In this document: piece by piece, positions 1 to 16,934 of the stretch | How positions within the stretch are numbered: the stretch's first letter is position 1 | Layout: the number at the start of each line of letters is the position of its first letter | Origin: Spirosoma fluviale | GTDB lineage: Bacteria; Bacteroidota; Bacteroidia; Cytophagales; Spirosomataceae | Reading direction: 5' to 3' | Assembly: GCF_900230225.1 (NCBI RefSeq) | Contig: NZ_OCNH01000003.1 | Span: 930,001 to 994,000, forward strand | DNA length: 64,000 nt | Notes under the pieces: generated by a model | What the model saw: only the letters and a program-made list of their open reading frames with translations | What the model was told of the DNA's origin: nothing | Database searches by the model: none | Translations under genes and position numbers: made by a program

Positions 1-449
1 ACAGTGTAGAGAACCCGTTTGTCGTCGCCATCTTCCCAGTACATCACCCCGCGCATCGGGTGAAACCGGGGTTTTGAATCAGGGTCGGCGAAAGGGTCGA
101 ATTGCCAGTGTTGTTTGCCCGTAGCAGCATCGACGGCAAAGAGTTTCAGCCGGGGCGAGGTTCCATACAGCACGCCTTTGACCACGATAGGCTGGCACTG
201 AATGTCCATCCCCCGCTGCGAGGTATCTTTGTTGTCGCCGGTATCGTAGCTCCAGGCCAGCTTCAGGTTCTTTACAGTCTGCGTATTGATCTGAGATAGT
301 TTCGAGTAGCGGTTTCCGGCATTATTGCCGCCATAAGTTGGCCAGTCGTCGTTGGGTGGCGACTGGTTTACTGGCTTTGTGTCGTCTTTCAGGGAGACAA
401 AACTTCCCAGAATGAGCAGACTGAATAGGGGTTTCAGGAATCTATTCAT
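1..449 (-). CDS. PQQ-dependent dehydrogenase (mGDH/quinate dehydrogenase type), 3' part beyond window
   Basis: Reading the minus strand from an ATG at 447-449 gives an open frame of about 150 codons that runs off the left edge. It starts with a hydrophobic Sec-type signal (MNRFLKPLFSLLILGSF). The start of a quinoprotein beta-propeller follows: DDWPTYGGNNAGNRYSKL, then a stretch on the INTQTVKNLKLAWSYDTGD pattern, then KLFAVDAATGKQHWQFDP. This is the characteristic first blade of membrane-type PQQ glucose/quinate dehydrogenases. Such enzymes oxidise aldoses or polyols in the periplasm and pass electrons to quinone or cytochrome c. The PQQ and Ca ligands lie outside the window, so the substrate cannot be read. 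It sits downstream of and co-oriented with the sugar-acid genes, which suits a role in making aldonates for the neighbouring dehydratases. That link is inference. Confidence 0.85.
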   Translation of the reverse strand, partial: MNRFLKPLFSLLILGSFVSLKDDTKPVNQSPPNDDWPTYGGNNAGNRYSKLSQINTQTVKNLKLAWSYDTGDNKDTSQRGMDIQCQPIVVKGVLYGTSPRLKLFAVDAATGKQHWQFDPFADPDSKPRFHPMRGVMYWEDGDDKRVLYT

Positions 450-470
450 GGATTTGTTGAATGTATTTAT

Positions 471-593
471 GTATCAGACAGCATCTCTGCTGTCTGGCCG
501 TCAGGCTAAAATGGACTACTTACCCCATTTCGATCTGGCTAGCTAGAGGTACTTTTTGCCTAACGGCCAGACAGCAGGGATGCTGCCTGATAC
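471..593. repeat. REP-like inverted repeat, copy A (40-nt arms)
   Basis: The arms lie at 471-510 and 554-593 and match at 36 of 40 positions. Each arm also contains an internal palindrome (GACAGCA...TGCTGTC). A second copy lies at 14130-14237 with different but mutually compensated bases. It fills most of the 450-651 gap between the PQQ gene and the mutarotase-like gene and could end transcription or act as a mobile REP element. No transposase is nearby. Confidence 0.85.
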
Positions 594-651
594 ACAGGCC
601 TGTTTCGGCTGAGTTGAGACGTCATGTAAACCTTTCGATACAGCGTTAGCT

Positions 652-1638
652 CTACTTCGCTTTCTCATAAAATTCGTACCGTATTTTCCAGGTCACTTCC
701 TTTCCGGGCGCTGCTTCCAGCCGGATGTACGGCTCCGGGCAGGAGGTGGTGGCACAGGCCCAGTAAACCAGTTTTTCCATGGGTTGATCGCTGGTGATGT
801 GGATACCCGCGCCCGTTTTCTGATTCTCGATGCGGATGTCGTAATCGGTAGCGGTGGGGCCGAAACCCTGAACGCCCGCCGTATACACATTTTCTTTTTT
901 CTCCAGATCACGGGCATACACGAACCGGTTGCCCTGCGGCAAAATGACACTCCCGAACCCTTTTCCTTCGGCCTTTACGGCATAGGGGAACAGAATTTCG
1001 ATGCCGGGGCCGGTAGGCTCTTTGTCGATGATGAAGAAATTATGGTCGTACACGCTCGTCTTGATGGGCAGCTTTCCCGTGTTTTTGAGGGTGTGTTCCA
1101 GTACCAGTTCCGGCTTTCCTTTTGTGAGCCTTACCGTTTTTCGATACCGATACCCGTAGCCCCCTGCATCGGTCAACTCGTGCGTAAAGTCGATGCGGTC
1201 TTTGTGCCGTTTGACCGTCCATTTGCCGTGGTCGGCCACTTCGTAATAAGTGGCAAAGGTATAGGGCTTGTCGGTGGATTTGCGCAGAGTGCCTACGCCA
1301 ATCTTCACGAAGGTATCACCGGGTTTGGCATCGGTGTAACCAAGGGGCGTAAACTCTTCGGCGGGGCCGTTGATGGCGTCGTGCATCTTCGGGTCGTAGT
1401 TCTCGAACCATTGATCCACGAAGGTATGGCCGTTGTAGGTCAGGCTCTTGAATGCCCCCGACCAGTCGAAGCGGGTCCCCTGATAGTACCCCTGCTGTTC
1501 ATCCGGCAGATAGAGCGTCGTCTGGATGACGCCATTCGACAAGTCAGCCTGCGGCCAGTCGGCCAGGGGTAAGGTCATGCTGCTGCTTAGGCCGATTAGG
1601 GTGAAAGCGGGGAGGAGGATTCGTTTCAGGTTGGTCAT
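652..1638 (-). CDS. Secreted galactose-mutarotase-fold protein of unknown function
   Basis: 328 residues with an N-terminal hydrophobic signal (about residues 1-26) and no lipobox cysteine. The mature part looks like an aldose-1-epimerase/mutarotase-type beta-sandwich: an N-terminal NGVIQTTLYLPDEQQGYYQG segment in which the protein meets its sugar ligand, a conserved-looking SVYDHNFF segment near residue 195, and a C-terminal YIRLEAAPGKEVTWKIRYEF strand. Related secreted proteins are common beside SusC/SusD loci in Bacteroidota and are usually annotated as hypothetical or aldose epimerase family. It is the last gene before the PQQ dehydrogenase and follows a SusD gene after a repeat-filled gap. 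Anomerisation of an incoming sugar before oxidation would fit, but the catalytic residues were not identified. Family assignment is moderate, function is inference. Confidence 0.55.
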   Translation of the reverse strand: MTNLKRILLPAFTLIGLSSSMTLPLADWPQADLSNGVIQTTLYLPDEQQGYYQGTRFDWSGAFKSLTYNGHTFVDQWFENYDPKMHDAINGPAEEFTPLGYTDAKPGDTFVKIGVGTLRKSTDKPYTFATYYEVADHGKWTVKRHKDRIDFTHELTDAGGYGYRYRKTVRLTKGKPELVLEHTLKNTGKLPIKTSVYDHNFFIIDKEPTGPGIEILFPYAVKAEGKGFGSVILPQGNRFVYARDLEKKENVYTAGVQGFGPTATDYDIRIENQKTGAGIHITSDQPMEKLVYWACATTSCPEPYIRLEAAPGKEVTWKIRYEFYEKAK

Positions 1639-1804
1639 GTGGGGTAGGGTGGAGTAGGTGGAGTAGGTGGAGTGAGTGAAAGTGGTGGAGTGAGTGGGAG
1701 TAAGTGTAATGAGTGGAAGTGGTGAGTGAGTTGTGCCAGTTTATGTACTTTCACTCACTCCACCATTTTCACTTACTCCACTATTTCCTACTCCACCACT
1801 TCAC
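1639..1804. repeat. Low-complexity imperfect inverted repeat (GTGGAGTA / TACTCCAC units)
   Basis: The left half is built from reiterated GGAGTAGGT, GGAGTGAGTG and similar purine-rich units. The right half (about 1748-1800) is their complement (CACTCACTCCACC, TACTCCACCAC). It fills the whole gap between the mutarotase-like gene and the SusD gene and can fold as one long imperfect hairpin. Confidence 0.7.
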
Positions 1805-3280
1805 TTAATTCAAATTCGGATTCAGCGACGTGTCGCTGTACGGCAGCGGGAACCAGTAATTGGCTTTTGTAATCGCCTTGATGGGTTGCAGGTCTTCGGG
1901 GCTTTTGGCCGCGTTAGCGGCTTCTACCCGTTCGAGCCGGACCAAGTCGAACCAGCGGGTACGCTCACAGGCGAACTCCCACGCCCGCTCCTCGACCACG
2001 GCGTCGGCAAACTGGCTGGCGGTCAGTCCGTCGGCGGAGGATAGGGCTTTCGTTCCGGCGGCCCGTCCCCGCAACCGCACCTGATTGAGGGCATCGTAAG
2101 CCGCCTGGTCGGGGCCACCGGTGCCGCGCGCTTTGGCTTCGGCATAGATGGTCAGCACGTGCGGGTAGCGCATCATGACGGAGGGCAGCGAAATACTCGA
2201 CGTTACGATGTTGCCTTTGATGTACCACTTCTGGTAGTACGGGTGCCGGGTCAGGCTCTGCTGCCACGGAATGGTGGTGGCACCAAGGCCGAACTGGGTA
2301 CGAAACGTTTTGTCCTTCCGTGGCCCTGCGGGGAAGGCGTTGAAGAAATTTAGCTCGGCAAACATATCATCCCAGCCGCCTTCTTCGCCCGGCATGGCCG
2401 TGTTGCCGTAGGTCGCATTTGCCGTGCCGCTACCGGCCGCAAAGCCACTGATCTGATAGACCGATTCGGGGATGATGGCCACCGCCGGGTCGTTTTCGAA
2501 GACGGCGGCAAAGGTGGGCATCAACTGAAAACCGTACAGGGCGCGGTTGTCGATGACCTCTTTGGCTTTGGCCGCTGCCAGATCATATTTGTCGGTTTGC
2601 TTCAACGGCCAGCCCGCCATCGTCAGGTATGCATCCGCCAGAAAAGCCTTCGCCGATCCTGCATTTGGCCGACCCGGATCGCGCCGGGTGTTGGGAAGCA
2701 TCGTTTCGGCTTTCTTCAGATCAGACACGATCAGATCATACACCTGCGCCACCGTCGACCTTTTGATAGTCAGCAAACTGTCCGAATACTCACCCGCCGT
2801 AATGAGCGGAATATTGCCGTAAAAGCGCGTCAGCCAGTAGTATGAAAAACCCCGGATAAAGTAGGCTTCACCCGCAATAATGTCAATCGTTGCCTTGGTG
2901 CCCACCGTTTTTGTGTAATTATTGATGACGTTGTTGGCCCCCTGGATGGCCTTGTAACAGCCATTATACACGGCCCCCGACCGCTGGTTGGTGGTCGACA
3001 CGTTGAACTGGTCGAACTCCCGCCAGTCGGCTTTGTTACTGGCCGGGTGGGTGGTCACGTCATCCGCCCCGAGCACAGCCCCATTGGCCGACGGGTGAAT
3101 GAATCCGTACGACCACTGGGAGCCCAGACCTTTGTAGGCACCCGTCAGAGCCGATTCCAGCCCGTCCTGCGTAGACAGTACGTTGGGGCCGTAGAGCAGG
3201 CCGGTGGTATCCTCATTGAGGTAATTTTTGCAGCCCATTGCCAGCGAGGCAGCGAGTAAACAGATCAATAGCTTTTTCAT
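1805..3280 (-). CDS. SusD/RagB family outer-membrane glycan-binding lipoprotein
   Basis: 491 residues with a lipoprotein signal ending in AMGC, lipidated at Cys17. The body carries SusD-type TPR-like segments (GAYKGLGSQWSYG, IAGEAYFIRGFSYYWLTRFYGNIPLI, AKAFLADAYLTMAGWPL) and the standard C-terminal ending in which FPLPYSDTSLNPNLN replaces the usual PIPQSEI-LNPNL. SusD proteins sit on the cell surface and cap the SusC barrel, binding the oligosaccharide or other nutrient to be imported. It lies 21 bp downstream of its SusC partner in one transcript. The cognate ligand is not readable from sequence, but the adjacent dehydratases suggest a sugar acid or acidic oligosaccharide. Length and motifs are normal for the family. 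Confidence 0.93.
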   Translation of the reverse strand: MKKLLICLLAASLAMGCKNYLNEDTTGLLYGPNVLSTQDGLESALTGAYKGLGSQWSYGFIHPSANGAVLGADDVTTHPASNKADWREFDQFNVSTTNQRSGAVYNGCYKAIQGANNVINNYTKTVGTKATIDIIAGEAYFIRGFSYYWLTRFYGNIPLITAGEYSDSLLTIKRSTVAQVYDLIVSDLKKAETMLPNTRRDPGRPNAGSAKAFLADAYLTMAGWPLKQTDKYDLAAAKAKEVIDNRALYGFQLMPTFAAVFENDPAVAIIPESVYQISGFAAGSGTANATYGNTAMPGEEGGWDDMFAELNFFNAFPAGPRKDKTFRTQFGLGATTIPWQQSLTRHPYYQKWYIKGNIVTSSISLPSVMMRYPHVLTIYAEAKARGTGGPDQAAYDALNQVRLRGRAAGTKALSSADGLTASQFADAVVEERAWEFACERTRWFDLVRLERVEAANAAKSPEDLQPIKAITKANYWFPLPYSDTSLNPNLN

Positions 3281-3301
3281 GTCAGCGAAGAGTTTATGGG
3301 C

Positions 3302-6292
3302 TTAAAAACCGAGGTTCAGGCCGATGGTGTATGTTTTTGAGTTAGGATAAGAGCCGTAGTCGATACCAATAGCCGTGTCCGTTGCGGAGCCAACGCTGCT
3401 CGATTCCGGGTCCGGGCCTTTGTATTTCGTGATGGTCAGCAGGTTTGTGGCGCTGAAGAACACCCGCGCATTGGCCTTGTTGCGGAGCACCGACGCGGGT
3501 AGATTGTACGACAGGCTCACGTTCTTGAGCCGGACGAAACTGCCATCTTCCAGGAATCGACTGGACTGGGTGAACGGCTGGTAGGTTCTCGTAAAGGCGG
3601 GCACGTCGGAGGTTTCGTTGCCCGGCCGGTAGTAATCCCGAACTTCAGCCAGGATGAACTGACGCGCATCGCCCGCACCCGAAAGCGCAGCCGCCCGCGT
3701 GTAATTGAGCTTGTCTACACCGAATACGCCGTTGAAGAAGACGTTCAATGTCAGGCCTTTGTAGCTGAAGGTGTTGTTCCAGCCGCCGGTTGCTTTCGGG
3801 AACGCCCGACCGATGATCTGGAAGTCGTCGGTGGTAATAGAGTTGTCGCCGTTGAGGTCCTGGTAATGCGGGTCGCCGGGAACACGGCCGAATCGGGCGG
3901 CCAGATCCGCTTCGTTGGGCTTGAACGTGCCGAGGTAATTGAGTCCCCAGTACGAACCGAGGGGTTGGCCGGGCATCAGCATGAACTCATTGGTGGTCGA
4001 CATACCCGCGCCCACGCCGGTACCGGTACCCAGCCGGGGTAGTCCACCCAGGCTGATGACCTGATTTTTCAGCGTCGAGAAGTTCAGGTTCGTTTCCCAA
4101 CGGAAGCCGCCTTTGTCGAAGGGCGTTCCGCCAAGCGATAATTCAACTCCTTTGTTCTCGATTTCGCCCACGTTGCGGGTCTGCGTACCGCCACCGGCAT
4201 AACTTGGTAAAGCGACATTCAGCAGCAGATCGGTCGTGTTTTTCTTGAAGTAATCGGCTTCGAAGCGCAGGCGTCCGCTGAAGAATTCCATCTCCAGACC
4301 AACGTCGGTCTGTTTGGTGGTTTCCCATTTGAGATTTCGGTTGCCTTGGTTGCCCTGAATCACCCCCGCCACAGCCGCCGTGTTGTTGAAGGCCACGAAG
4401 GTGGTGTTGTAGGGCGACAGCGTAGCGTAGGGATTGATGGCCTGACTGCCCGTCATGCCCCAGCTTCCGCGAAGTTTGAGGTTACTGAACACGTTCATTT
4501 TCTTGATGAACTCCTCTTCCGACAATCGCCAGCCCAGCGCCAGCGAGGGGAAAACGCTGTTCCGGTTCTCGGGGCTGAACTTCGACGAGCCATCCTGCCG
4601 AACGGCCGCCGTAACCAGATACTTGTCTTTGTAGGCGTAATTCACCCGGCCCAACAGCGAGAGCAGCGTCCATTTCTGAAAGCCGGAGCCTACCGAAGCC
4701 GCCGAGTTGCCGCCAATGTTGTTGTAGCCCAGTTGCGGAAAACGAAGCCCCGTAGCGGTGGCCGTAAAGTTGTTGTCCGTGAACTGCTGCGTTTCCAGCA
4801 CCGCCACCGCATTGATGGAGTGGTTGCCAAAGGCCACCGTATAGTTCAGCGAGTTCGTATTCTGCAAGGTCACCTGCTCGGATGAAAAGCGGCTGGCACT
4901 TGGGTTATTATTGGAAAGCCGTTGACCCGAAAAGTTCAGGTTCTGAGCGTTCAGGTAGTTGACGGCGTACTGCAAGTCCAGCGTAAGCCCTTTGATGGGA
5001 AGCTTGTAATTCAAGCCACCGTTGACGTTGATGGACGACCGGTCCAGATCAGCCGCCTGGTCGTAGAGGTAGTCAATTGGGTTCCGGTACACCGAGCCAA
5101 TGGGGTCGATAAAGGTAGGCTGCCCGTCGGCACCGTAAGCCGGGGTTGTGGGTGCCCACGCCACCGACTGAATAATGGCACCTCCCCCGTTGGTGTTGTG
5201 GTTTCTGGATTTGGTACCCCACAAATTCAGCCGGAGGGAAAGCTTGTCGTTGATCTGTGTATTCAGGTTGGTACGCAGAATATAGCGTTTGAAGCCGCTG
5301 TTTTCCACAATCCCGTTCTGGTTGACGTAGTTGCCGGAGATTAAAAACGTCGTTTTATCGCCACCGCCCGATACGGTGATCTGGTGCTGCTGTCCGCTGC
5401 CCGTTCGGAAAACGAGGTCCTGCCAGTCGGTGCCGCCGTTTTGTTTGAACTGGGCGATCTGGTCGGTGGTAAAGGGGAGATTGGAGCCGGTTGCCGTGGC
5501 GCGGGCATTCACAATTTCGGCGAATTCACCGGCGGGCAACACGTCGTAGGTTTTGATCACACTGGAGACGCTGCCCTGTCCTTCGTAATTTACTTTGATT
5601 CCCTTGGCCCCTTTTTTTGTCGTAATAATGACAACCCCATTCGCCCCGCGACTCCCGTAAATCGAGGTCGAAGCTGCATCTTTCAACACCTGAAGGGTTT
5701 CAATATCGCTGGGGTTTATGAAGTTAAAGTCCGCCCCCACAAAACCATCCACCACGTACAGCGGGTTGTTGCTCCCCAGCACCGAGTTGGCCCCCCGAAT
5801 CCGGATGCGGGCATCGCCACCGGGCGCTCCCGTTGCCTGGGTCACCTGTACCCCGGCCGCGCGGCCCTGCAACACCTGATCGATGCGCGTAACGGGCTGC
5901 TGGGCAAATTCCTTGGTGGAGATAGCCGTCAACGCGCCGGTAACGTCTGTTTTGCGTTGTGTACCATAGCCAACCACGACCACCTCGCTCAGCGTTTTCT
6001 GGTCTTCAGCCAGTTGAACGTTGACCACCTGGCGTCCGTCAATCGCTACGGTCTGACTCACGTAGCCAATGTTCGAAAACACCAGCTTCCCATTGCCCGG
6101 TGCATTCAGGGTAAAACTACCCGTCGCGTCGGTGGCCGTACCCAACGTGCTGCCGCTCACCTGAACGTTAACACCCGGCAGTCCCTGATTGTCCGGGCCG
6201 ATGACGATACCCGTGATTCTGGCGTTCTGCGCGAAGGCATAGCCCCGGCACAAAAGCAGCAGAAAAAAGAAAAGTTTTACATGGTTTTTCAT
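3302..6292 (-). CDS. SusC/RagA family TonB-linked outer-membrane transporter
   Basis: 996 residues. A signal peptide (about 1-21) is followed by a carboxypeptidase-D-like regulatory domain (about 25-100, GLPGVNVQVSGSTLGTATD). Next comes a TonB-dependent plug that opens with SEVVVVGYGTQRKTDVTGA and contains RIRGANSV-type and VLKDAASTSIYGSRGANGVV motifs, the SusC signature. The remainder is a 22-strand barrel ending in an aromatic residue (GLNLGF). It imports the ligand delivered by the SusD protein 21 bp downstream, powered by TonB/ExbBD. It is preceded on the same strand by the D-galactonate dehydratase-like gene with a 70-bp gap, so the dehydratase, SusC and SusD are probably co-transcribed. 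Confidence 0.95.
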   Translation of the reverse strand: MKNHVKLFFFLLLLCRGYAFAQNARITGIVIGPDNQGLPGVNVQVSGSTLGTATDATGSFTLNAPGNGKLVFSNIGYVSQTVAIDGRQVVNVQLAEDQKTLSEVVVVGYGTQRKTDVTGALTAISTKEFAQQPVTRIDQVLQGRAAGVQVTQATGAPGGDARIRIRGANSVLGSNNPLYVVDGFVGADFNFINPSDIETLQVLKDAASTSIYGSRGANGVVIITTKKGAKGIKVNYEGQGSVSSVIKTYDVLPAGEFAEIVNARATATGSNLPFTTDQIAQFKQNGGTDWQDLVFRTGSGQQHQITVSGGGDKTTFLISGNYVNQNGIVENSGFKRYILRTNLNTQINDKLSLRLNLWGTKSRNHNTNGGGAIIQSVAWAPTTPAYGADGQPTFIDPIGSVYRNPIDYLYDQAADLDRSSINVNGGLNYKLPIKGLTLDLQYAVNYLNAQNLNFSGQRLSNNNPSASRFSSEQVTLQNTNSLNYTVAFGNHSINAVAVLETQQFTDNNFTATATGLRFPQLGYNNIGGNSAASVGSGFQKWTLLSLLGRVNYAYKDKYLVTAAVRQDGSSKFSPENRNSVFPSLALGWRLSEEEFIKKMNVFSNLKLRGSWGMTGSQAINPYATLSPYNTTFVAFNNTAAVAGVIQGNQGNRNLKWETTKQTDVGLEMEFFSGRLRFEADYFKKNTTDLLLNVALPSYAGGGTQTRNVGEIENKGVELSLGGTPFDKGGFRWETNLNFSTLKNQVISLGGLPRLGTGTGVGAGMSTTNEFMLMPGQPLGSYWGLNYLGTFKPNEADLAARFGRVPGDPHYQDLNGDNSITTDDFQIIGRAFPKATGGWNNTFSYKGLTLNVFFNGVFGVDKLNYTRAAALSGAGDARQFILAEVRDYYRPGNETSDVPAFTRTYQPFTQSSRFLEDGSFVRLKNVSLSYNLPASVLRNKANARVFFSATNLLTITKYKGPDPESSSVGSATDTAIGIDYGSYPNSKTYTIGLNLGF

Positions 6293-6362
6293 AAGAGAAA
6301 AATTGATTGAGTAGGAGGAAATTAAGGGTATTGGTATTTGTTGTCTTATGTTAATTTTTTGA

Positions 6363-7610
6363 CTACCAGTCCACTACAGAGCCGTCGAGCGCATTGTACG
6401 ACTCCGGGTTTTTCCAGTCGTGACCAATCTTGTCTTTCATTTGGGCCTCGTCCAGTTCGACGCCCAGACCGGGACCTTGTGGGATCATGACCGTGCCGTC
6501 TTTCTGTAATTTGAAGGGGTTCTTTAAGTAGCCTTCGCCCAGCGACACTTGTTCCTGTACCAGGAAATTCGGTACACTGGCGGCCAGTTGCAGACCTACA
6601 GCCAGCGAGATCGGGCCCATCGGGTTGTGCGGGGCAATGGGAACGTAATACGCTTCGGCCATGCCCGCAATCAGTCGACCTTCCGTAATACCGCCCGCGT
6701 GGCAAAGGTCGGGTTGGACGATGCTGACGGCTTTCTTTTCCAGCAATTCGCGGAAGCCCCATTTGGTGAAAATCCGCTCCCCGGCGGCAATGGGCAGATG
6801 AGTGCCCCGCGCAATGTCGGCCAGTATGTCGACGTTCTGCGCCTGGCAGGGTTCCTCTACGAACATGGGCTGGTAGCGCTCCAGCTCCTTGATCAGAATC
6901 TTGGCCGTTTGGGGTGGAATACTGCCGTGGAAGTCGATAGCAATGTCCATATCGTCGCCCCCTGCCTGCCGTAGTTCAGCGAAATTGTTGATCGCATTTC
7001 GGACGAATCGTGGGTTTTCAACGATGTTGGCCGGGTCTTTTTTGAAGACACCCGTTTTAATGACGGTGTACCCTTCGGCCTTCCGTTTTTTGATATCCTC
7101 GCCCGAACTGGCCCGTCCATAGACACGCACCCGGTCGCGGGTGGGGCCGCCGAGAAGCTCATAGACCGGCACGTTCAGCAGTTTTCCTTTGATGTCCCAC
7201 AAGGCCTGGTCGATACCGCTGAGGGCACTGGTCAGGATGGGGCCACCCCGGTAGAAGGCATGACGGTAAATAGCCTGCCAATGGTGAACAATGTGGCGCG
7301 GGTCTTTGCCGATCAGATACGGCTCCACTTCTTTAATGGCCGTTTGGATGGTCAGCGCCCGGCCTTCCAGCAACGGTTCGCCCAGCCCCACAACGCCCAC
7401 GTCGGTATGGATTTTCAGGAAGATCCAGCGGGGCTTGACCAGAAAGGTTTCCAGCTTCGTAATCTTCACTTTACTGTAATCGGCAAAATGGCCCGGACTA
7501 GCGGCATAGGACGATTGCGGAAGCTTCAGGGCCGCTACGCCCGTCACGCCCAGCACCGACTGGATGGCCGACCGGCGGGACATGCCGGGTTTTTTGTTTG
7601 ATGATTTCAT
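6363..7610 (-). CDS. dgoD: Tat-exported D-galactonate dehydratase-like enolase-superfamily enzyme
   Basis: 415 residues. The N-terminus has a twin-arginine motif (MSRRSAIQ, residues 10-17), then a hydrophobic stretch and an alanine-rich cleavage region near residue 37, so export through Tat is predicted. The catalytic set is complete: Asp226 and His228 (IDFHG), Glu252 (VEEP), Glu278 (AAGERI), His328 (APHNP) and Glu353 (VQEQ). Their spacing (+2, +26, +52, +102, +127) is what is known for Escherichia coli DgoD. The lid and barrel motifs QPDLCHAGGITE and IAGMAEAYYVPIAPHNPMGP also match that subgroup. The family dehydrates D-galactonate to 2-keto-3-deoxygalactonate with Mg2+. E. coli DgoD is cytosolic; here the signal peptide argues for a periplasmic enzyme. 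The start chosen places the Tat motif ten residues in. Confidence 0.88.
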   Translation of the reverse strand: MKSSNKKPGMSRRSAIQSVLGVTGVAALKLPQSSYAASPGHFADYSKVKITKLETFLVKPRWIFLKIHTDVGVVGLGEPLLEGRALTIQTAIKEVEPYLIGKDPRHIVHHWQAIYRHAFYRGGPILTSALSGIDQALWDIKGKLLNVPVYELLGGPTRDRVRVYGRASSGEDIKKRKAEGYTVIKTGVFKKDPANIVENPRFVRNAINNFAELRQAGGDDMDIAIDFHGSIPPQTAKILIKELERYQPMFVEEPCQAQNVDILADIARGTHLPIAAGERIFTKWGFRELLEKKAVSIVQPDLCHAGGITEGRLIAGMAEAYYVPIAPHNPMGPISLAVGLQLAASVPNFLVQEQVSLGEGYLKNPFKLQKDGTVMIPQGPGLGVELDEAQMKDKIGHDWKNPESYNALDGSVVDW

Positions 7611-7663
7611 TTGGGTTTAGGGTATGAGAGTTACAGAAAAGACCACCGGCACCGGCCGCCCGG

Positions 7664-7750
7664 CCCAACCCCCTCCTTGAAAAAAGGAGGGGGTTTTGTA
7701 AAGGGATGCCCTTGTCCTAGCCCCCTCCTTTTTTCAAGGAGGGGGTTGGG
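7664..7750. repeat. Inverted repeat with 30-nt perfect arms, each arm self-palindromic
   Basis: The arms at 7664-7693 and 7721-7750 are exact complements. Each contains CCCCCTCC...GGAGGGGG separated by an A/T run, so each arm can also fold alone, and the loop holds AGGG...CCCT. It lies in the 230-bp gap between the ManD-like gene and the galactonate dehydratase-like gene and may separate two transcription units. Confidence 0.85.
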
Positions 7751-7840
7751 GGGTGGTGAAATGGGACCTTCCAACTGATGACACAAGGTTTTAAGAAACC
7801 CCGCTTGTCGGGTGCTTAAACCGACATCCACTCCACCAAC

Positions 7841-9196: not shown

Positions 9197-9244
9197 GTGA
9201 GAAAAAGAAAGGTTAATAGGTTGTAAGTCTGATGTTTTGGGGGA

Positions 9245-10780
9245 CTACTTCTTATCCCACCACACCCGCGTATCCAGCGTGTTTGGCCCCTGCCGGGTGA
9301 TAGCTTCGTTCAGGTTTGCTGAGTTGACGACGATCTCGCTGTCCGGATAGGGCATACGCCGGATGAAGTCGCCCTTTACTTCGGAGCCGGGGTAGGGGTT
9401 TTTCTTTAGCGCGGGGAAGCCAGAGCGCCGGAAATTGGCGAAAGACTCGTTGCCATCCAGGAAGGTAGCGACCCAATATTGGGTGTTGATCAGCTCCAGC
9501 GCTTTGGCCGCGTCCAGCGGGTGTGTATCCAGATACACCTTTATATCGGCCTCCGGAACGGGTGATCCGTAGGATGCCATCTGTTCGAGATTAGCCCGGA
9601 TACCTTTGGCGTAATAGTCGGCCGCCGTACCTGTCACCCAGCCCCGAACGGCGGCTTCGGCCAGCAGGAGCTGCACCTGCGAATAGGTAATGTGAAACTC
9701 GGGCGCGTCCAGTTTCAAGACCGTGCTCAGGTTGACCTGGCTATAATCCCACAGGCTGGCTACTCCATTTTGGGCCAGTGTCGATGTAATGGATACGTCG
9801 TTGTAGCCCATCGGCATCCCGATTTGCACCTTTGGGTCAGACGAGGCACGGGCGGCTACCTGCTCCTGACCACCTTTGGCCCCTACATAACGTACGGCAA
9901 AAATGGGCAGCCGAGGGTCGTTATTATCTTTCAGGTAATTGACGAACGGAGCCGCTAGGTAGAAGTTGGTTTTTTCGCGGGCGGCTAAGTGGTTGGCAAT
10001 GTAGTTGTTGTAAATGGCCGTGTGCCGGATAATCGAGTTGTCGGCGTTGGATTGAAACACGCCCCCCGTTACCGCTTTCGTTACGTACGACTGTGCCGTG
10101 GCGGGATCGACTTTGGTTAACCGCATGGCCGCTCGAAGCATGAACGAGTAACCCAGTTTCTTCCACTTTACCGGGTCGCCACCGTATAGAATATCGGTGG
10201 TAACGGCGGGTTGGGTGGTTGTCAGGGCGGCCGATGCTTCCTCCAGTTCCTTCAGGATATCCTTGTAAATGGCCTGCTGAGCGTCGTATTTAGGCGAGAT
10301 GATCTCATTCGTGTAACCCTGTCCCGCTTCGAAATAAGGTATGTCGCCGTAGGTGTCGGTCAGGATCATGAAGATGTACGCTTTCCAGATGCGGGCCGCG
10401 TTGTAGGTATTGATTTGCAGGGGATCGCTCTTGGTCTGGTCCAGCACGGCGATCAACTGCTTCAATACATTGCGGTACATATTGACCCAAACCAGCGGGG
10501 TGTTGCCCCCGTTGATCTGATCGTAGTTGGCTCCCGACAGCGAGCTGCCGTAGGGCGTAATGATCTGTTGCACAATGCCGAAGTTGTACGTCAGCATACC
10601 CAGCGTGCCAAATCCGTCGAGGTAAGTGGTGCTGATGATGGCTTTGTTGAGCACCAGCGAAGGGGCCAGCGCCGTCGGGTTTACGCGGTTTGTGTTCAGT
10701 TCGGTGAACCCTTCGTCGCAACCTGAAAGCAGGCTCAGCGAAAGGACTAGGGCAAGTATATGTTTGAGATTTGTTTTCAT
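9245..10780 (-). CDS. SusD-like outer-membrane lipoprotein (SusD-like_2 type)
   Basis: 511 residues with a lipoprotein signal ending LLSGC, lipidated at Cys21. The mature start (DEGFTELNTNRVNPTALAPSLVLNKAI) is typical of the second SusD subfamily, in which 'NP-ALAPS-LL-A' patterns recur, and differs from the SusD protein at 1805-3280. Later segments such as IWKAYIFMILTDTYGDIPYFEAGQG and LLLAEAAVRGW form the helical TPR-like scaffold. It would cap the SusC barrel encoded 46 bp upstream and bind its ligand at the cell surface. The ManD-type dehydratase gene follows after 48 bp, so ligand capture, import and conversion are probably coexpressed. Confidence 0.92.
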   Translation of the reverse strand: MKTNLKHILALVLSLSLLSGCDEGFTELNTNRVNPTALAPSLVLNKAIISTTYLDGFGTLGMLTYNFGIVQQIITPYGSSLSGANYDQINGGNTPLVWVNMYRNVLKQLIAVLDQTKSDPLQINTYNAARIWKAYIFMILTDTYGDIPYFEAGQGYTNEIISPKYDAQQAIYKDILKELEEASAALTTTQPAVTTDILYGGDPVKWKKLGYSFMLRAAMRLTKVDPATAQSYVTKAVTGGVFQSNADNSIIRHTAIYNNYIANHLAAREKTNFYLAAPFVNYLKDNNDPRLPIFAVRYVGAKGGQEQVAARASSDPKVQIGMPMGYNDVSITSTLAQNGVASLWDYSQVNLSTVLKLDAPEFHITYSQVQLLLAEAAVRGWVTGTAADYYAKGIRANLEQMASYGSPVPEADIKVYLDTHPLDAAKALELINTQYWVATFLDGNESFANFRRSGFPALKKNPYPGSEVKGDFIRRMPYPDSEIVVNSANLNEAITRQGPNTLDTRVWWDKK

Positions 10781-10826
10781 GATTCCAGTCGTTTGGGTGT
10801 TGTCATCCTTAAGAATGACAGAGAAA

Positions 10827-13800
10827 TTAGAATCGGGCGTTGAGGTTAAAGCCTATGCTGCGGGTAGGCGGTAAGCCCGGCCAGAAATCCAGTCCAACGG
10901 CGTTGTCCGACGAAACCAGCACTTCCTCCGGGTCCATGTTCTCGGTCCATTTTTTGATGATCAGGACGTTGTTCGCCACTGCATTCAGCCGCAGACCTTT
11001 CAGGAAGAAACGCTGGGGCAGGATTTTATCGAAATCGTAGCCCAACGAGATCTGACGCAGTTTCCAAAACCCGGCATTGAATACAAAGTCTTCGTTGATA
11101 CCCAGCGGATTAATGGATTCGTAGAAGGGCTGGACGGCGGCTCTCGTCTGGTTGATCTCGCCGTTTGGATTGACCCCGTTGCCGATCACATACCCCACAT
11201 CCCGACCCGGTAAGGTCCGTTTCGACAAGCCGTGGCGCATGTAGTTGATGTTGCGGCCCGCAATCAGTTTATGGCCCAGCTTGAAGTCGATCAGTGCCGA
11301 CAGCACTATGCCCCGGTAGGTAAAGGTGTTGGTGATGCCGCCGAAATAGTTTGGCAGGGCATTCCCCACGTTTTTCAGGGTATTGTTCCGAAGCGGCATC
11401 CCGCTGTTGGCGTCGAACACCTGCCGACCCTGCGCATCCCGCAGGTAGGTGAAGGTGTACAACTGCCCGATTGGCTTGCCCACCACCTGATTGAGTGTCC
11501 GCCCACCGCCACTGCTGACGGTAATGACAGTGTCGTTGGGCGATAAGCCAAGTTTCAGCACTTTGGAGGTATTGTACGATACGTTGGCGCTGACATCCCA
11601 ACGGAAAGCAGGCGTCCGGACGGGCGAAAAGGTCAATAGCATCTCAAGTCCCTTGTTCATACTTCGGCCTACGTTGATCAGTTTGCTGGTGTACGACGAG
11701 GCATCGGAAACCTGAGCGGCCAGAATCTGATCGTCTGTTGTTTTGTGGTAGTAGGTAAAATCGAGGCCTATTTTATTGGCAAACAGCTTCAGCTCAAGCC
11801 CCACTTCTGCTTCCTGAATGCGGAGCGGGCGCAGGTTTTTGTTGGGAACAACCGTTGCATTGATGCCGCCCACGGGTACCAGCGCACCGGAAGGGTTCGG
11901 GAAGGAGTTGTTATCGACGGAGAAATACAGCGCGTTGGAGTAGGGGTCGACGTTGTCCGAGCCCACCTGCGCATAAGCCGCACGCAACTTTCCGAACGAC
12001 AGCCAGGCGGGCATGTTATCGAACGCCTGCGAGAACACAAAACTGCTCGTAACGGATGGGTACAGAATGCTCCGGTTGGAGGGAGCCAGCGTCGAGAACC
12101 AGTCATTGCGTGCGGTGGCGCTCAAAAACAGGAAGTCCTTGTAGGATACCGTAGCCGCCCCAAACACCGAGTTGATCTTTTTCTCCGCCAGACTGTAGAG
12201 CGGGTCTTTGATGCGGCCGTTCATGACGGTGTAGAGCCCCGGCTGCACAAAATCCTGCACCGTTACACTGTTGTAGTCGTTGCGGGCGTAGCGGTGGTTG
12301 CCGCCCAGCGTTACATCCACGCCGATGCTGCCAAACGTCTTGTTCATGCCGAGAATCAAGTCAAGGTTTCGTTCGGTATTCTGGCGGACATCCTGCGTGT
12401 AGGAGCCATTCACAAAACCCACCGGGGCGCGGGCAATGGGCGCGTACCCGTTCGGAATATTGTACTCCTGATTGCGCACGTAGAAATCCTGCGCCAGCCG
12501 GGCCTGCACGTACAGCCAGTCGGCGAACTGGTATTTCAGGGCAACGTTCCCGAACAGCCGACTGCGATTGACGTTCTCGAATTTGCGGCTCATGGAATAA
12601 TAGGGATTATTCCGAACCAGAAAACGCGAGAAAACGAACTCATCGCCGTTGGGCAAGGTCTGGTTTTCCCGTAAGGCCTGAAAAGGCATCGAGTTGGCCA
12701 GCGTGAAAATTACGGTCGATACGGACAGATCCTGGGTGTTTAGCTGGGGTGGATTGACGTTATTTTCCAGCGAATAGTTGATATTTCCCAGCGCTGTCAG
12801 TTTACTGGTAATGTTCTGCGTGAATCCCAGATTGATCACCTTGCGGTTGAAGGTGTTGTTTTCCATGATTCCCTTATTGTCGGTGTTGCCAAACGACAGG
12901 CTAAAACCGCCGTTCTGGCCGCTGTTCGATACGGTTACGGTATTGGTGAAATTGGTGCCGACGCGGTAAAACTGCCGCACCCGATTGCGTACCGGCTCAT
13001 AAGGCCAGGTTTCATTATCGAACAGAGTCTGCGTCATGCCCGGCTGGAATTTCTCGCCGAAACTCCACACGCCCGATGTTGGGTTGGCCGTTGTAGGTCG
13101 TCTGCCGCCTTCGCCCTGCCCGTATTCGTACTGAAAGTCCGTAAAGTCGAGGGGGGTATCGGTCGTGAAGTTGGTGTTGTAGGTAACGCCGAAGCCTTTC
13201 CCCGAGCCTTTACTTTTGGTCGTAATCATCACCACGCCATCTTTGGCGCGTGAGCCGTACAGAGCGGCAGCTGTAGCGCCTTTTAACACGGTCATCTCTT
13301 CAATATCGTCGGGGTTGATGCTGCTCAGACCATCGCCACCGTCCGAACTGTTGGAAGCCCGGTTGCCGAAATCGCCCCCCAGCGCGAAATTGGAATTGTC
13401 GATCGGGACACCGTTTACAACAATCAGCGGGTTATTCTGCCCGCTGAATGAGGATTGACCGCGGATGCGGATTTTGGCGGTTCCGGCGGGGCCTGTACCC
13501 ATGGATGTGATGTTGACACCGGCCATTTTGCCCTGTAACCCACTCATGAAATTGGGCGTCCGGTTCACGTTGATCTGTTCGGCATTGACCGTTGCGGTGG
13601 CGTACCCCAGCGTTTTGGCTTCCCGTTTGATCCCAAGGGCCGTTACCACCACTTCATCAATGGCTTTGGCATCTTCGGCCAGTTCTACGTTCACAACCGA
13701 GCGATTATTGACGGGTATTGTCTGGCTGACGTAGCTGATATACGAAAAAATCAGCGAGGCATTGGCGGGAGCATTAATGGCGTAATTGCCCGAGGCATCC

Positions 13801-13958
13801 GTCGCGGTGCCGATGGACGTCCCACTGACGAGGACGTTGACGCCTGGTAATGGCTGCTTGTCTGTACCGGTTACCTTACCGGTTATCCGGTTCGTCTGGG
13901 CATAGGCCAGACCGCAACTGAGAAGCAGACAACAAAGAAAGATTAGAGCTTTATTCAT
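10827..13958 (-). CDS. SusC/RagA family TonB-linked outer-membrane transporter
   Basis: 1043 residues with a signal peptide (about 1-20) and a carboxypeptidase-D-like regulatory domain (about 22-98, LPGVNVLVSGTSIGTATDASG). The TonB plug begins DEVVVTALGIKREAKTLGYA and includes KIRIRGQSSFSGQNNPLIVV and VLKGATAAALYGSRAKDGVV. A long barrel ends in the aromatic terminus NLNARF. The ALGIKR plug start marks a different SusC lineage from the VGYGTQ protein at 3302-6292, matching the different SusD type encoded next to it. It is first in the SusC-SusD-ManD operon. The gap upstream (13959-14331) holds a REP-like inverted repeat; no convincing promoter box was found there. Confidence 0.95.
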   Translation of the reverse strand: MNKALIFLCCLLLSCGLAYAQTNRITGKVTGTDKQPLPGVNVLVSGTSIGTATDASGNYAINAPANASLIFSYISYVSQTIPVNNRSVVNVELAEDAKAIDEVVVTALGIKREAKTLGYATATVNAEQINVNRTPNFMSGLQGKMAGVNITSMGTGPAGTAKIRIRGQSSFSGQNNPLIVVNGVPIDNSNFALGGDFGNRASNSSDGGDGLSSINPDDIEEMTVLKGATAAALYGSRAKDGVVMITTKSKGSGKGFGVTYNTNFTTDTPLDFTDFQYEYGQGEGGRRPTTANPTSGVWSFGEKFQPGMTQTLFDNETWPYEPVRNRVRQFYRVGTNFTNTVTVSNSGQNGGFSLSFGNTDNKGIMENNTFNRKVINLGFTQNITSKLTALGNINYSLENNVNPPQLNTQDLSVSTVIFTLANSMPFQALRENQTLPNGDEFVFSRFLVRNNPYYSMSRKFENVNRSRLFGNVALKYQFADWLYVQARLAQDFYVRNQEYNIPNGYAPIARAPVGFVNGSYTQDVRQNTERNLDLILGMNKTFGSIGVDVTLGGNHRYARNDYNSVTVQDFVQPGLYTVMNGRIKDPLYSLAEKKINSVFGAATVSYKDFLFLSATARNDWFSTLAPSNRSILYPSVTSSFVFSQAFDNMPAWLSFGKLRAAYAQVGSDNVDPYSNALYFSVDNNSFPNPSGALVPVGGINATVVPNKNLRPLRIQEAEVGLELKLFANKIGLDFTYYHKTTDDQILAAQVSDASSYTSKLINVGRSMNKGLEMLLTFSPVRTPAFRWDVSANVSYNTSKVLKLGLSPNDTVITVSSGGGRTLNQVVGKPIGQLYTFTYLRDAQGRQVFDANSGMPLRNNTLKNVGNALPNYFGGITNTFTYRGIVLSALIDFKLGHKLIAGRNINYMRHGLSKRTLPGRDVGYVIGNGVNPNGEINQTRAAVQPFYESINPLGINEDFVFNAGFWKLRQISLGYDFDKILPQRFFLKGLRLNAVANNVLIIKKWTENMDPEEVLVSSDNAVGLDFWPGLPPTRSIGFNLNARF

Positions 13959-14129
13959 TTGTAACAGAGATTTAGGGTAGCAGAATTGGTATTAAACTGT
14001 CCTTGAATATCAATGTATAATATTGATATAGTACTAATTTCTAGTTGCAATGAAATGAGTTACCCCAACCCTGTCATAAATCATATCTTGTAAGAACTTT
14101 CTAGTTTTCCGGCCTTGCTGGTGCTGTAC

Positions 14130-14237
14130 GTATCCGACAGCATCCCTGCTGTCGAGCCGTCAGGCTAAATCAGGCCGGTTAACTTTCAAGGGTCATTTTT
14201 AGCCTAGCGGCTCGACAGCAGGGATGCTGTCGGATAC
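14130..14237. repeat. REP-like inverted repeat, copy B (40-nt arms)
   Basis: The arms lie at 14130-14169 and 14198-14237 and match at 38 of 40 positions. They share the framework of copy A (471-593), but the CTGTC-TGG-CCG block of copy A is CTGTC-GAG-CCG here, and the change is compensated in the opposite arm. The rest of the 13959-14331 intergenic gap shows nothing else recognisable beyond AT-rich sequence upstream of the SusC start. Confidence 0.87.
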
Positions 14238-14331
14238 CCTAGTTAACCCTTACAAGATTAAGTTATTGACAGAGAACAGGCGTTACTTCATCAGGCTTTT
14301 AATCGATCTTCAGGTTGTATGAGAGGTATGC

Positions 14332-15573
14332 TTACCAGTTGTGGATGGCGCCATCGGGGCTTTTCAGGATTGGGTGAGGGAACTCGGTCTTTGCCGATAC
14401 CTCCAGTACAAACGTTGCTTTCTTGGGGTCGAATTTGACGCCTAAACCCGGCTCGGGGTTCAGATACAGTTTGCCGTTTTTGAAGTTTACGTAATCTTCG
14501 TTGAAATAAGCGGGTCGCTCGGGTTCGCCACCGCCCAGCTCCATCAGGCAGCGGGTGGGGCTGCTGGAGCCCAGAACGTGTACCAATGCCGCTGTAGACA
14601 GTGGCCCGGTGAAGTGCGGAATCATGCCTGCATAGTGCGTTTCGCACAAAGAGGCTATCTTTTTAAACTCCCCGATACCGCCGGTGTTGGGTAAGGTAAC
14701 CCGTGTGTAGTCGATCAGGCGCTGTTCAATGAACTCATTAATATCCCAGCGATCGCCAAACTGCTCGCCCACGGCAATGGGCACGGTTGTCATCTGGCGA
14801 ACGGTCTTATACACGGCCGGGTTTTCGGAGCGGACAATGTCCTCCACGAAATAAGGCTCCATGTTTTCCAGCGCTTTGCAGATTTTTAGCCCTTCGGTGG
14901 TATCGAAGCGCGTGTGCAAATCGATGGCCCATTTGCCGCCACCCCCCACGGCCCCGTCGATCCGCTTGCAGAGCTCAATCGTTTTCTTGGCGTTGTCGTA
15001 GAAGTCGAACGGTTGATCGCCGTTACCACCGGTTGGACCAATGCGGTAAGCGCGTAAACCGGCTTCTATGCAGTCTCTGGCGCGTTCTTCTTCGGTTTTG
15101 GCTTTGGAAGCCCGGAAGCCCGTAGCATAACATTCAACATAATCCCGCGTGGCCCCTCCCAGCAACTCGTAGACGGGAACACCCAGCGCTTTGCCCTTAA
15201 GGTCCCAGAGGGCCATTTCCAGCGCTCCGAGTGCGTGTAGTTTCTCGCGGCCCGGTGGATAAAACATACCCCGGTACACGTTTTGCCAGATGTGCTCGAT
15301 GCGAAACGGATTTTCACCGATCATCATCTGGGCGCACTGTTCGATCATGTCTTTTGATCCGCCCTCGCCGATGCCGATAATGCCGCCATCGGTGTAAATT
15401 TCAACGATACCGCGCGCCTGATTGAACAAAGGTTTATTATAGCCGGGGGCGCTGTAATACCTGATTTTCGTGATTTTAAGTTTCGGGGGTGCCTGCGCCA
15501 GACTCGTCGGCCAACCCGCCCAGAGAGCGGTTGAACCGACGAGCGCCGACTTGAGAAAGTTACGTCTTTCCAT
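14332..15573 (-). CDS. Tat-exported mandelate racemase/muconate lactonizing-type dehydratase
   Basis: 413 residues beginning MERRNFLKSALVG, a close match to the RRxFLK Tat consensus, with a likely cleavage near LAQA (residues 25-28). Enolase-superfamily residues are Asp218 and His220 (IDLHTRFD), Glu244 (FVEDI), Glu270 (VGEQF) and His320 (IPHFTGPLS). Their spacing is the same as in the galactonate dehydratase-like protein of this window (+2, +26, +52, +102). An Asp-His pair after the second barrel strand and a His late in the barrel are what acid-sugar dehydratases of this superfamily use. Substrate is not assigned: the 20s and 50s loops that decide it match no subgroup I recognise. A LacI-type palindrome lies 59 bp upstream of the start, so this gene is probably controlled by the adjacent LacI-family regulator. 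Confidence 0.85.
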   Translation of the reverse strand: MERRNFLKSALVGSTALWAGWPTSLAQAPPKLKITKIRYYSAPGYNKPLFNQARGIVEIYTDGGIIGIGEGGSKDMIEQCAQMMIGENPFRIEHIWQNVYRGMFYPPGREKLHALGALEMALWDLKGKALGVPVYELLGGATRDYVECYATGFRASKAKTEEERARDCIEAGLRAYRIGPTGGNGDQPFDFYDNAKKTIELCKRIDGAVGGGGKWAIDLHTRFDTTEGLKICKALENMEPYFVEDIVRSENPAVYKTVRQMTTVPIAVGEQFGDRWDINEFIEQRLIDYTRVTLPNTGGIGEFKKIASLCETHYAGMIPHFTGPLSTAALVHVLGSSSPTRCLMELGGGEPERPAYFNEDYVNFKNGKLYLNPEPGLGVKFDPKKATFVLEVSAKTEFPHPILKSPDGAIHNW

Positions 15574-15631
15574 AAAGTTAAGGGTAAGGAATCGTCAATT
15601 AAGGTTTAGGAAGTAATCAGTATAAGGATTC

Positions 15632-15647
15632 GCTTAATCGGTTAAGC
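15632..15647. promoter_or_regulatory. Candidate LacI-family operator upstream of the third dehydratase
   Basis: GCTTAATCGGTTAAGC has perfect 6-nt arms and the central CG expected for LacI-family operators. It shares the core TTAATCGRTTAAGCAA with the site at 16776-16787 in front of the lacI-type gene itself. Confidence 0.65.
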
Positions 15648-15659
15648 AACGGCATAAAA

Positions 15660-16700
15660 CTAAGTGATCAGGGTTTTGTGGGTTTTTGAGGAGGCTCGTT
15701 CGATCAATTCTGCTTTCATAAGTATCTGCTCGGGTTCAGTTGGTTTATGGGTTAATTTCTTTACTAATAATTCAACCGCCGTTTGGCCCAATAGCCCAAT
15801 AGGCTGCTTGATGTAGGTAATGGGGCAATGGTACAATTCAAATACCTCGGCTTGTCCGAAACTGACGATGGCAAGGTCGTCCGGCACCCTGACACCTAGT
15901 TTGTTTATGTATTTCAGTCCGCTTACGGCTAGGCTATAGGTGGCAAACAGCAGCGCGTCAACAGGTTGGTCAGTAGCCAGCATGGTATCGATGGCTGCTT
16001 TCACACCGGTGTCGATGGCGCTGATCTTTACCCGTTTCAACCAATGCTCATGTGCGTTTATTGGGTTATCCCGAAGTGCATCCTGATACCCTCTAATTCG
16101 TTCGTGCATGTGAAACATTTGCGAATCGTAGGCAATCATGCCAATGTGTTTGTACTGGTTTTTAACTAAATGAGTGGCTGCGTCATACGATGCTCTGTAA
16201 TGGTCGGTCGAAACGAAATCAGTCGGTATCTCCGGAAAATATCGGTCCAGCAGCACAAAAGGAATATGCCTGTCGTTCAGGGAGCGAATCTGATCCTCCG
16301 AATTTTCAGAGGAGACAATGATAAATCCATCGACCTGTCGGTTAATCAGCACCTCCAGTAAATCCCGCGACTTGCTGGCATTTTCATCTGAGCTACCAAT
16401 AATGACTGTATATCCGTTTCGTTTTGCTTCATCTTCAACCACCCGGGCAATATTGGCGAAGAACGGGTTCGATATATCGGCAATGACAAGGCCGATGGTA
16501 TGCGTTTTACCGCTTCGTAGACTCTTGGCCAGATGGCTCGGCTGGTAATTTAGCTCGGCGGCTATCTGCCTGACCTTCGTTGCTATTTCCTGTCCAACCC
16601 GACTTTCTTTTTCTTTGCCATTCAACACATAAGACACTAAAGCGGTGGAGACACCGGCTTTTTGGGCTATATCTTTTATAGACACCTTGGTCTTATTCAT
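15660..16700 (-). CDS. LacI-family transcriptional regulator of the sugar-acid locus
   Basis: 346 residues. The N-terminal helix-turn-helix (SIKDIAQKAGVSTALVSYVLNG, residues 7-28) and hinge (AAELNYQPSHLAKSLRSGKTHTIGLVI) are standard for the LacI/GalR family. The rest is a periplasmic-binding-protein-like effector domain (IADISNPFFANIARVVEDEA, VDGFIIVSS, FVLLDRYFPEIPTDFVSTDH). It should bind a sugar or sugar acid and release or engage operators. Two near-identical palindromes, at 15632-15647 before the third dehydratase and at 16776-16787 in its own promoter, point to autoregulation and control of that gene. Whether it also controls the SusC/SusD operons is open, since no matching site was found before them. 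The gene is divergent from punA. Confidence 0.92.
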   Translation of the reverse strand: MNKTKVSIKDIAQKAGVSTALVSYVLNGKEKESRVGQEIATKVRQIAAELNYQPSHLAKSLRSGKTHTIGLVIADISNPFFANIARVVEDEAKRNGYTVIIGSSDENASKSRDLLEVLINRQVDGFIIVSSENSEDQIRSLNDRHIPFVLLDRYFPEIPTDFVSTDHYRASYDAATHLVKNQYKHIGMIAYDSQMFHMHERIRGYQDALRDNPINAHEHWLKRVKISAIDTGVKAAIDTMLATDQPVDALLFATYSLAVSGLKYINKLGVRVPDDLAIVSFGQAEVFELYHCPITYIKQPIGLLGQTAVELLVKKLTHKPTEPEQILMKAELIERASSKTHKTLIT

Positions 16701-16764
16701 GCTTCATTTATGGGATTAGGCTACTCGGTTGGTGGGATAAGTAGAGCCCGGCAACATAATCAAA

Positions 16765-16792
16765 CAAATATAAAGTTAATCGATTAAGCAAA
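16765..16792 (-). promoter_or_regulatory. lacI-type gene promoter with embedded LacI operator
   Basis: On the minus strand TATATTTG (16765-16772) matches the Bacteroidota -7 box TAnnTTTG. The perfect 12-bp palindrome TTAATCGATTAA (16776-16787) lies between that box and a TTTG on the minus strand at 16789-16792. The spacing is short (16 bp), so the exact -33 box is unsure, but a bound repressor would block this promoter. Confidence 0.6.
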
Positions 16793-16934
16793 ACAAGAAC
16801 TATTATTATTTTTATTGAAATTTGTTTTATTATCAGATGACGCGTGTTCAGTAAGGAGCGGTATCTGCCCAGATTTTGCATTTTTATCCATCCTAAAGAA
16901 AACCAACTGGCTAGAAGATTAAGGCCGCAAGCCG

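Follow-up and report, generated by a model that had tools for sequence, protein, structure and literature searches.

A Spirosoma fluviale sugar-acid locus suggestive of a De Ley-Doudoroff pathway split across the inner membrane

Introduction

The De Ley-Doudoroff pathway, as encoded by the dgo genes of Escherichia coli, brings together in one locus a galactonate-type dehydratase, a 2-keto-3-deoxygalactonate kinase, an aldolase of the 2-keto-3-deoxy-6-phosphogluconate/6-phosphogalactonate (KDPG/KDPGal) type and a major facilitator superfamily (MFS) transporter. Its known versions dehydrate the sugar acid inside the cell. Here we describe a Spirosoma fluviale locus that contains the same four elements and lies across the left edge of a 64,000-nucleotide stretch (hereafter, the window; positions 930001-994000 of contig 10 of the 7.8 Mb genome). 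Compared with dgo, this locus adds dehydratases (E1, E2 and E3) with starts of the twin-arginine translocation (Tat) type, a pyrroloquinoline quinone (PQQ) dehydrogenase and SusC/SusD (SusCD) pairs.

Oxidation of an aldose outside the inner membrane by a PQQ-dependent beta-propeller enzyme is a feature that the locus would share with the PQQ glucose dehydrogenase routes. In the routes that start with the periplasmic PQQ glucose dehydrogenase Gcd, as in Pseudomonas and E. coli, the compound taken up is an aldonate or ketoaldonate, whereas here dehydration too appears to take place outside the inner membrane. LacABC and DUF1080 proteins form a putative periplasmic 3-ketoglycoside route in Caulobacter and Bacteroidetes, in which, similarly, carbohydrate oxidation and further chemistry are proposed to occur in the periplasm; its enzymes and products are different, and the available part of the paper mentions no dehydratase (PMC9007349). 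In the DauA-D system of Zobellia, also encoded in a Bacteroidota carbohydrate locus, an enolase-superfamily enzyme supplies 2-keto-3-deoxygalactonate (KDGal) to a kinase. The monosaccharide 3,6-anhydro-D-galactose (D-AnG) is made in the periplasm and then taken up, and thus the later DauA-D steps are presumably inside; unlike at the present locus, no PQQ enzyme or Tat signal is mentioned in the available part of that work (PMC5698469). Among the open-licence papers searched, we found no description of a periplasmic route that combines Tat-type dehydratases and PQQ oxidation, consistent with the initial annotation of this DNA, which knew of no system of this form. The component families are known; we did not encounter the arrangement, or the transport step that it implies, in those papers.

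Results

We propose, with a probability of about two in three, that the locus encodes a De Ley-Doudoroff pathway divided between compartments, in which oxidation and dehydration would occur in the periplasm, the keto-deoxy acid would be imported, and phosphorylation and cleavage would follow in the cytosol. Reasoning from sequence, the SusC/SusD pairs would mediate outer-membrane uptake of a sugar or sugar acid. The secreted mutarotase-fold protein and the periplasmic PQQ dehydrogenase, with its built-in cytochrome c, would then convert aldoses to aldonolactones and deliver electrons to the respiratory chain. E1 (galactonate-dehydratase type), E2 (ManD-subgroup-like) and E3, which would fold in the cytoplasm before Tat export, are predicted to convert aldonates to 2-keto-3-deoxyaldonates. 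The keto acid, and not the aldonate, would cross the inner membrane through an MFS proton symporter of the anion:cation symporter (ACS) family. In the cytosol, a DgoK-type kinase and a KDPG-type aldolase would turn it into pyruvate and glyceraldehyde 3-phosphate. A periplasmic route in which aldose becomes aldonate and then 2-keto-3-deoxy acid, and only the product is imported, had been suggested in the initial annotation. The kinase, the aldolase and a distinct MFS transporter, all found beyond the window edge, and the recurrence of the arrangement speak for it, while its substrates and localisations are ones that we infer.

All three dehydratase open reading frames (ORFs) are present on the minus strand (Table 1) and score above the gathering thresholds of both MR_MLE_N and MR_MLE_C. 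As first noted for this DNA, each combines an N-terminal RR pair (residues 12-13 in E1, 8-9 in E2 and 3-4 in E3) and a following hydrophobic stretch with a complete catalytic set. The Asp-x-His/Glu/Glu/His set is invariant when E1-E3 are aligned with DgoD of E. coli and a single galactonate dehydratase of the cytosolic type. In E3 it consists of D218/H220/E244/E270/H320, and E1 residues D226/H228/E252/E278/H328/E353 align with DgoD D183/H185/E209/E235/H285/E310, which we take to be the catalytic residues of DgoD. E1 scores above the equivalog cut-off of the galactonate dehydratase model NF010624, which names its function and is silent on its compartment. The closest named relative of E1 in our scan belongs to a Spirosoma metagenome-assembled genome (MAG; 97%, L017), and a plasmid search with E1 returned relatives that were all below 60% identity. 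E2, whose closest solved sequences are 3t6c, 4ihc and 3tw9, was rejected as a ManD equivalog on its NF043051 score; E3 matches 13 NCBIfam models, each below its cut-off.

Do these dehydratases act on simple aldonates? They could instead be exported to process acids derived from uronates or oligosaccharides, for instance aldobionic or anhydro-sugar acids. Such substrates would suit the two SusCD pairs and the related Zobellia enzyme, a 3,6-anhydro-D-galactonate cycloisomerase according to the available part of its description (PMC5698469; structure 5olc, a distant match here). They would also suit the 12 fixed differences between the E1 type and cytosolic-type galactonate dehydratases, among them an Asn in E1, in place of Cys, next to the catalytic His; because of these differences and of a score of 446 bits for E1 against 676 for a cytosolic-type relative, D-galactonate may not be the E1 substrate. 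However, E1 remains above the galactonate dehydratase cut-off, and the DgoK and aldolase genes of the operon point to KDGal or 2-keto-3-deoxygluconate (KDG) as the product, so that we regard acids of this kind as distinctly improbable substrates.

We scored a Tat-like start by a rule of our own, RR plus a hydrophobic stretch. It was present in 74/80 E1, 45/50 E2 and 53/54 E3 homologues (at least 50% identity), a sample that tilts to close homologues because the E1 loci were the 80 top-scoring ones among at least 562 relatives, and in 4/334 ORFs that come from these loci and belong to other families. Homologues missed by the rule have frames that are over-extended, cut or broken: among the six for E1, the motif is visible by eye in four (L057, L092, L093 and L095) and the frame is broken in two (L044 and L065, excluded from the E1 alignment); among the five for E2, one shows the motif by eye and four are cut or broken; the single E3 miss is a fragment. 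In the E1-type alignment, R13 is found in 79/79 and R12 in 78/79 Tat-type rows while the surroundings of the pair vary; the exception, L094, is a row trimmed by our script and has its RR under the rule. Alignment positions 1-19 are gaps in 13/13 cytosolic-type galactonate dehydratases (11 loci of the phylum, one Sinorhizobium and one E. coli; L133, an over-long ORF, is absent here and is counted among the 12 loci inspected below). In a quick tree with two outgroup rows on very long branches, a single branch (support 86) separates the Tat type from the other rows, and the Tat-type rows include MAGs labelled as Acidobacteria, Planctomycetota, Omnitrophota and Verrucomicrobia genera.

Are these extensions working export signals? 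If they were not, or if translation began downstream of them, the locus would encode an ordinary cytosolic De Ley-Doudoroff pathway, as might be expected from aligned cytosolic-type relatives that lack the extension. Indeed, the Tat signals predicted for E1-E3 were borne out by our rule and not by the curated Tat profiles: E1 had no match, E2 reached 17.0 bits with TIGR02811 (cut-off 48.45), and E3 reached 17.0 with PF10518 (cut-off 22.7) and 13.1 with TIGR01409 (cut-off 16.7). Besides, codons 19, 22 and 48 of E1 are GTG; codon 48 lies where the mature domain begins and might, in principle, initiate a cytosolic form. Against a cytosolic pathway, the RR pair is retained across 79 rows with variable surroundings, start-like codons are absent between codons 14 and 70 of E2 and between 1 and 49 of E3, the MFS transporter of the locus is not DgoT-like, and a signal-bearing oxidase gene directly precedes the kinase gene. 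We thus consider a purely cytosolic pathway very unlikely. The genome encodes TatC (211.9 bits), but since TatC is found in 391/395 sampled genomes of the phylum, its presence is weakly informative and its co-occurrence is useless as a test. An enolase-superfamily relative at another locus (L048) clears the curated profile TIGR01409 (19.4 bits, cut-off 16.7).

The window edge cuts the locus, and the DNA beyond it adds the DgoK-type kinase, the KDPG-type aldolase and the MFS transporter. The PQQ dehydrogenase, which spans the edge, is a beta-propeller protein of 752 residues; it has a signal-like N-terminus and contains an inserted cytochrome c domain (PF01011, PF13442). Its 602-residue part outside the window scores 489.6 bits with PF01011, which places it in the beta-propeller family, and the dehydrogenase falls below the cut-off of the curated membrane-bound subfamily TIGR03074 (462.9 bits, cut-off 832.65, with a match that begins at profile position 145). 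Its family suggests that the enzyme oxidises aldoses. The stop codon of its gene lies 22 bases before the kinase ATG that orthologues use (a 14-base overlap, obtained with a mechanical first-TTG start, was discarded), the kinase and aldolase genes overlap by 4 bases, and the kinase ORF starts within 150 bases of the PQQ dehydrogenase end in 19/27 relatives that have both genes. By our rule, a Tat-like start was found in 0/36 kinases and 0/38 aldolases, and both enzymes are cytosolic by family. Thus, the locus is not wholly extracytoplasmic, contrary to the early view that all its enzymes are.

What does the MFS transporter carry? The transporters of cytosolic-type loci (three loci) are 51-53% identical to an E. 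coli DgoT copy, whereas those of Tat loci (six loci compared) are 24-27% identical to it and 71-80% identical to one another. The E. coli sequence is a plasmid copy beside dgoD, annotated only as "MFS transporter"; we name it DgoT on account of its position, and since the ten contact residues that we looked up in PMC6532931 all occur at the published numbers. A second MFS protein in L125 (23% identical to this copy) was left out of the counts, and L135 seems to duplicate the L021 record. In DgoT, according to the available part of the structural study, Arg47, Tyr79 and Tyr44 hold the carboxylate and Gln164, Gln264, Ser370 and Asn393 hold the galactonate hydroxyls (PMC6532931). On that numbering, the carboxylate and proton-coupling residues Y44, D46, R47, Y79, R126 and E133 are retained in 30/30 Tat-locus rows. 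Unlike in E. coli dgo, the hydroxyl contacts are replaced: among ungapped rows, Q164 is Thr in 28 and Ala in 1 of 29, Q264 is Lys in 28/28, S370 is Thr in 23/23 and N393 is Gly in 21/21. The retained and replaced residues together predict transport of a sugar acid other than galactonate, and the operon suggests a 2-keto-3-deoxy acid as its cargo.

Does the oxidase belong with the dehydratases? An E1-like protein (E 1e-60) was found in 19 of the 395 genomes of the phylum sample, 3 of the Tat type (at least 85% identity, source genome included) and 16 at 39-51%; we compared the loci of 12 of these 16 cytosolic-type genomes with the 53/80 Tat loci that have 8 kb on each side, in which we counted neighbours within 8 kb. 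The Tat-like extension was absent from all cytosolic-type dehydratases (0/12), and their loci have an aldolase-like ORF in 8/12, DgoK in 7/12 and a DgoT-like MFS transporter in 3/12 cases. The PQQ dehydrogenase of the present locus, undetected by tblastn in cytosolic-type loci (0/12), occurs in 27/53 Tat loci (Fisher p = 0.0008, kinship ignored). Thus, the pairing of Tat-type dehydratase and PQQ dehydrogenase that the initial annotation proposed to seek in relatives does recur, and it recurs in the same genome. There, an E2 paralogue (90%) on contig 13 has a second PQQ dehydrogenase (63%) and a SusC/SusD-like pair as neighbours (L138:9223-12907), so that the two enzyme types are paired independently of the present locus. 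Another RR-bearing enolase-superfamily protein of the genome adjoins an MFS transporter 51% identical to that of the locus. Thirteen proteins of the genome match MR_MLE_C; the six that lack an RR start are all below the galactonate and ManD cut-offs. One RR-starting protein, on contig 7 (L141:8206-9642), has a weak MR_MLE_C match (51.3 bits) and fits no NCBIfam model well.

The same comparison bears on a scheme in which the dehydratases are exported and PQQ oxidation is an optional side branch: ready-made aldonates or other sugar acids would be scavenged and dehydrated in the periplasm, and the keto acid imported. It would explain the 26/53 Tat loci without the PQQ dehydrogenase within 8 kb, among them Larkinella loci that retain E3, SusCD, E1, DgoK, DgoA and the MFS transporter without this gene; furthermore, no glycoside hydrolase was spotted in the gene run, on inspection by eye without a dedicated search. 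Yet the PQQ dehydrogenase and kinase genes are nearly contiguous here and in most relatives that have both, the genome holds the second pair, and in Larkinella a molybdenum enzyme could stand in for the missing dehydrogenase. At the left ends of the two Larkinella loci read fully (L023 and L026), molybdenum aldehyde-oxidoreductase genes adjoin the LacI gene in divergent orientation; in L023, the only one profiled, their best matches are PaoA and PaoC, below cut-off, and the Fe-S subunit has an RR start. Thus, a PaoABC-like enzyme could replace the PQQ dehydrogenase in this genus, and we find the side-branch scheme unlikely.

Within the window, the locus is a minus-strand run from 16700 to the left edge, in the order LacI, E3, SusC/SusD, E2, E1, SusC/SusD, mutarotase-fold protein and the start of the PQQ dehydrogenase (Table 1). 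Homologues of SusC 2 and SusC 1 are found within 8 kb of the Tat-type galactonate dehydratase homologue in 38/53 and 25/53 loci, respectively; a LacI regulator homologue occurs in 37/53 (loci of at least 19 kb). In the mutarotase-fold protein, H71, H86, H199, E249 and E302 are among the invariant columns of 14 aligned rows and are candidates for the catalytic His and Glu. Past the MFS transporter gene follow 3-hydroxyacyl-CoA-dehydrogenase-like and M19 dipeptidase-like proteins (L002:12825-14969; gaps of 88 and 69 bases).

Table 1. Genes of the locus in the order of the run (window positions, or coordinates in records L142 and L002 for DNA beyond the edge).
Feature	Coordinates	Strand	Profile evidence and remarks
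LacI-family regulator, heads the run	15660..16700	-	PF00356 52.2 bits, PF13377 99.5 bits
E3, putative Tat-type enolase-superfamily dehydratase	14332..15573	-	MR_MLE_C 138.9 bits; N-terminus MERRNFLKSALVG
SusC-type outer-membrane transporter 2	10827..13958	-	TIGR04056 625.7 bits, cut-off 368.25
SusD-type lipoprotein 2	9245..10780	-	PF12771 286.3 bits
E2, putative Tat-type ManD-subgroup-like dehydratase	7841..9196	-	NF043051 395.1 bits, below cut-off 550; motif QSRRDTLKMLG
E1, Tat-type galactonate-dehydratase homologue	6363..7610	-	NF010624 446.2 bits, cut-off 311; N-terminus MSRRSAIQSVLG
SusC-type outer-membrane transporter 1	3302..6292	-	TIGR04056 888.8 bits, cut-off 368.25
SusD-type lipoprotein 1	1805..3280	-	PF14322 97.1 bits, PF07980 78.5 bits
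Aldose-1-epimerase (mutarotase) fold protein, predicted secreted	652..1638	-	assigned to the mutarotase fold; signal-like N-terminus
PQQ dehydrogenase, N-terminal 149 of 752 residues	3..449	-	remainder beyond window; whole gene L142:4191-6449
DGOK-family kinase (2-keto-3-deoxygalactonate kinase)	L002:17161-18204		PF05035 201.4 bits, cut-off 25
KDPG/KDPGal-type aldolase	L002:16517-17164		TIGR01182 182.5 bits, cut-off 156.05
MFS transporter	L002:15058-16353		TIGR00893 240.9 bits, below the DgoT-type cut-off 395

Discussion

Together with the curated Tat profiles, the GTG codon, the tilt of the sample, the E1 score and its fixed differences, and the loci without the oxidase, several observations weigh against a pathway divided between compartments. 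(i) DgoK (35% identity, within 8 kb) is missing in 22/53 Tat loci, and with the loci that have no PQQ dehydrogenase this means that many relatives do not display the complete route; it is clearest in Spirosoma, Dyadobacter and Runella, with a handful of further examples. The Fisher test above carries no correction for kinship. (ii) No lactonase was spotted in the locus, on inspection by eye and with no aldonolactonase test made. (iii) E2 is below both ManD-type cut-offs, and the genome holds two IlvD/EDD-family proteins, so that aldonates might also be dehydrated in the cytosol by an enzyme from a different family. (iv) The replaced transporter residues indicate a changed substrate without naming which, and the exchange of S370 for Thr is mild. 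(v) A search of the genome for pqqC gave no match, as in the controls (0/14 control genomes matched). The cofactor may plausibly be scavenged by the host and not made, since PQQ biosynthesis genes are reported, in the available part of that study, to be absent from Bacteroidota that encode the PQQ importer PqqU (PMC12124388).

What would a pathway divided in this way mean? The dehydration step of the classic pathway would have moved across the inner membrane, and the transported cargo would be a keto-deoxy acid in place of a sugar or aldonate. Such a division would account for the missing DgoT-like transporter at the locus and provide a candidate importer of keto-deoxy acids. It also turns the RR start of 7/13 MR_MLE_C proteins encoded by the genome into a testable question.

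The locus arrangement recurs in other genera. Tentatively, and at slightly less than even odds, the locus could represent a general module for periplasmic sugar-acid dehydration found in several phyla. This module would consist of PQQ or PaoABC-like aldose oxidases, arrays of Tat-type dehydratases of two folds (the enolase superfamily and, in Daejeonella, UxuA) and an ACS/MFS clade that imports 2-keto-3-deoxyaldonate. If so, only the committed keto acid would enter the cell, aldose use would be selfish, and the first two steps would take place in the periplasm, near the respiratory chain.

In the Daejeonella MAG (L048:3935-15054), a SusC/SusD pair is followed by five RR-starting enolase-superfamily proteins, and the same run encodes an RR-bearing UxuA (PF03786) and the further enolase-superfamily protein with the TIGR01409 match. 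In S. fluviale itself, on the contig of the locus and outside the window, a DgaE-related enzyme dependent on pyridoxal phosphate (PLP), of a sugar-acid type (L002:2835-4058; TIGR01437 178 bits, cut-off 385.3), lies near a further SusC/SusD-like pair and has a Tat-like start, MLNRRSLIKRLS.

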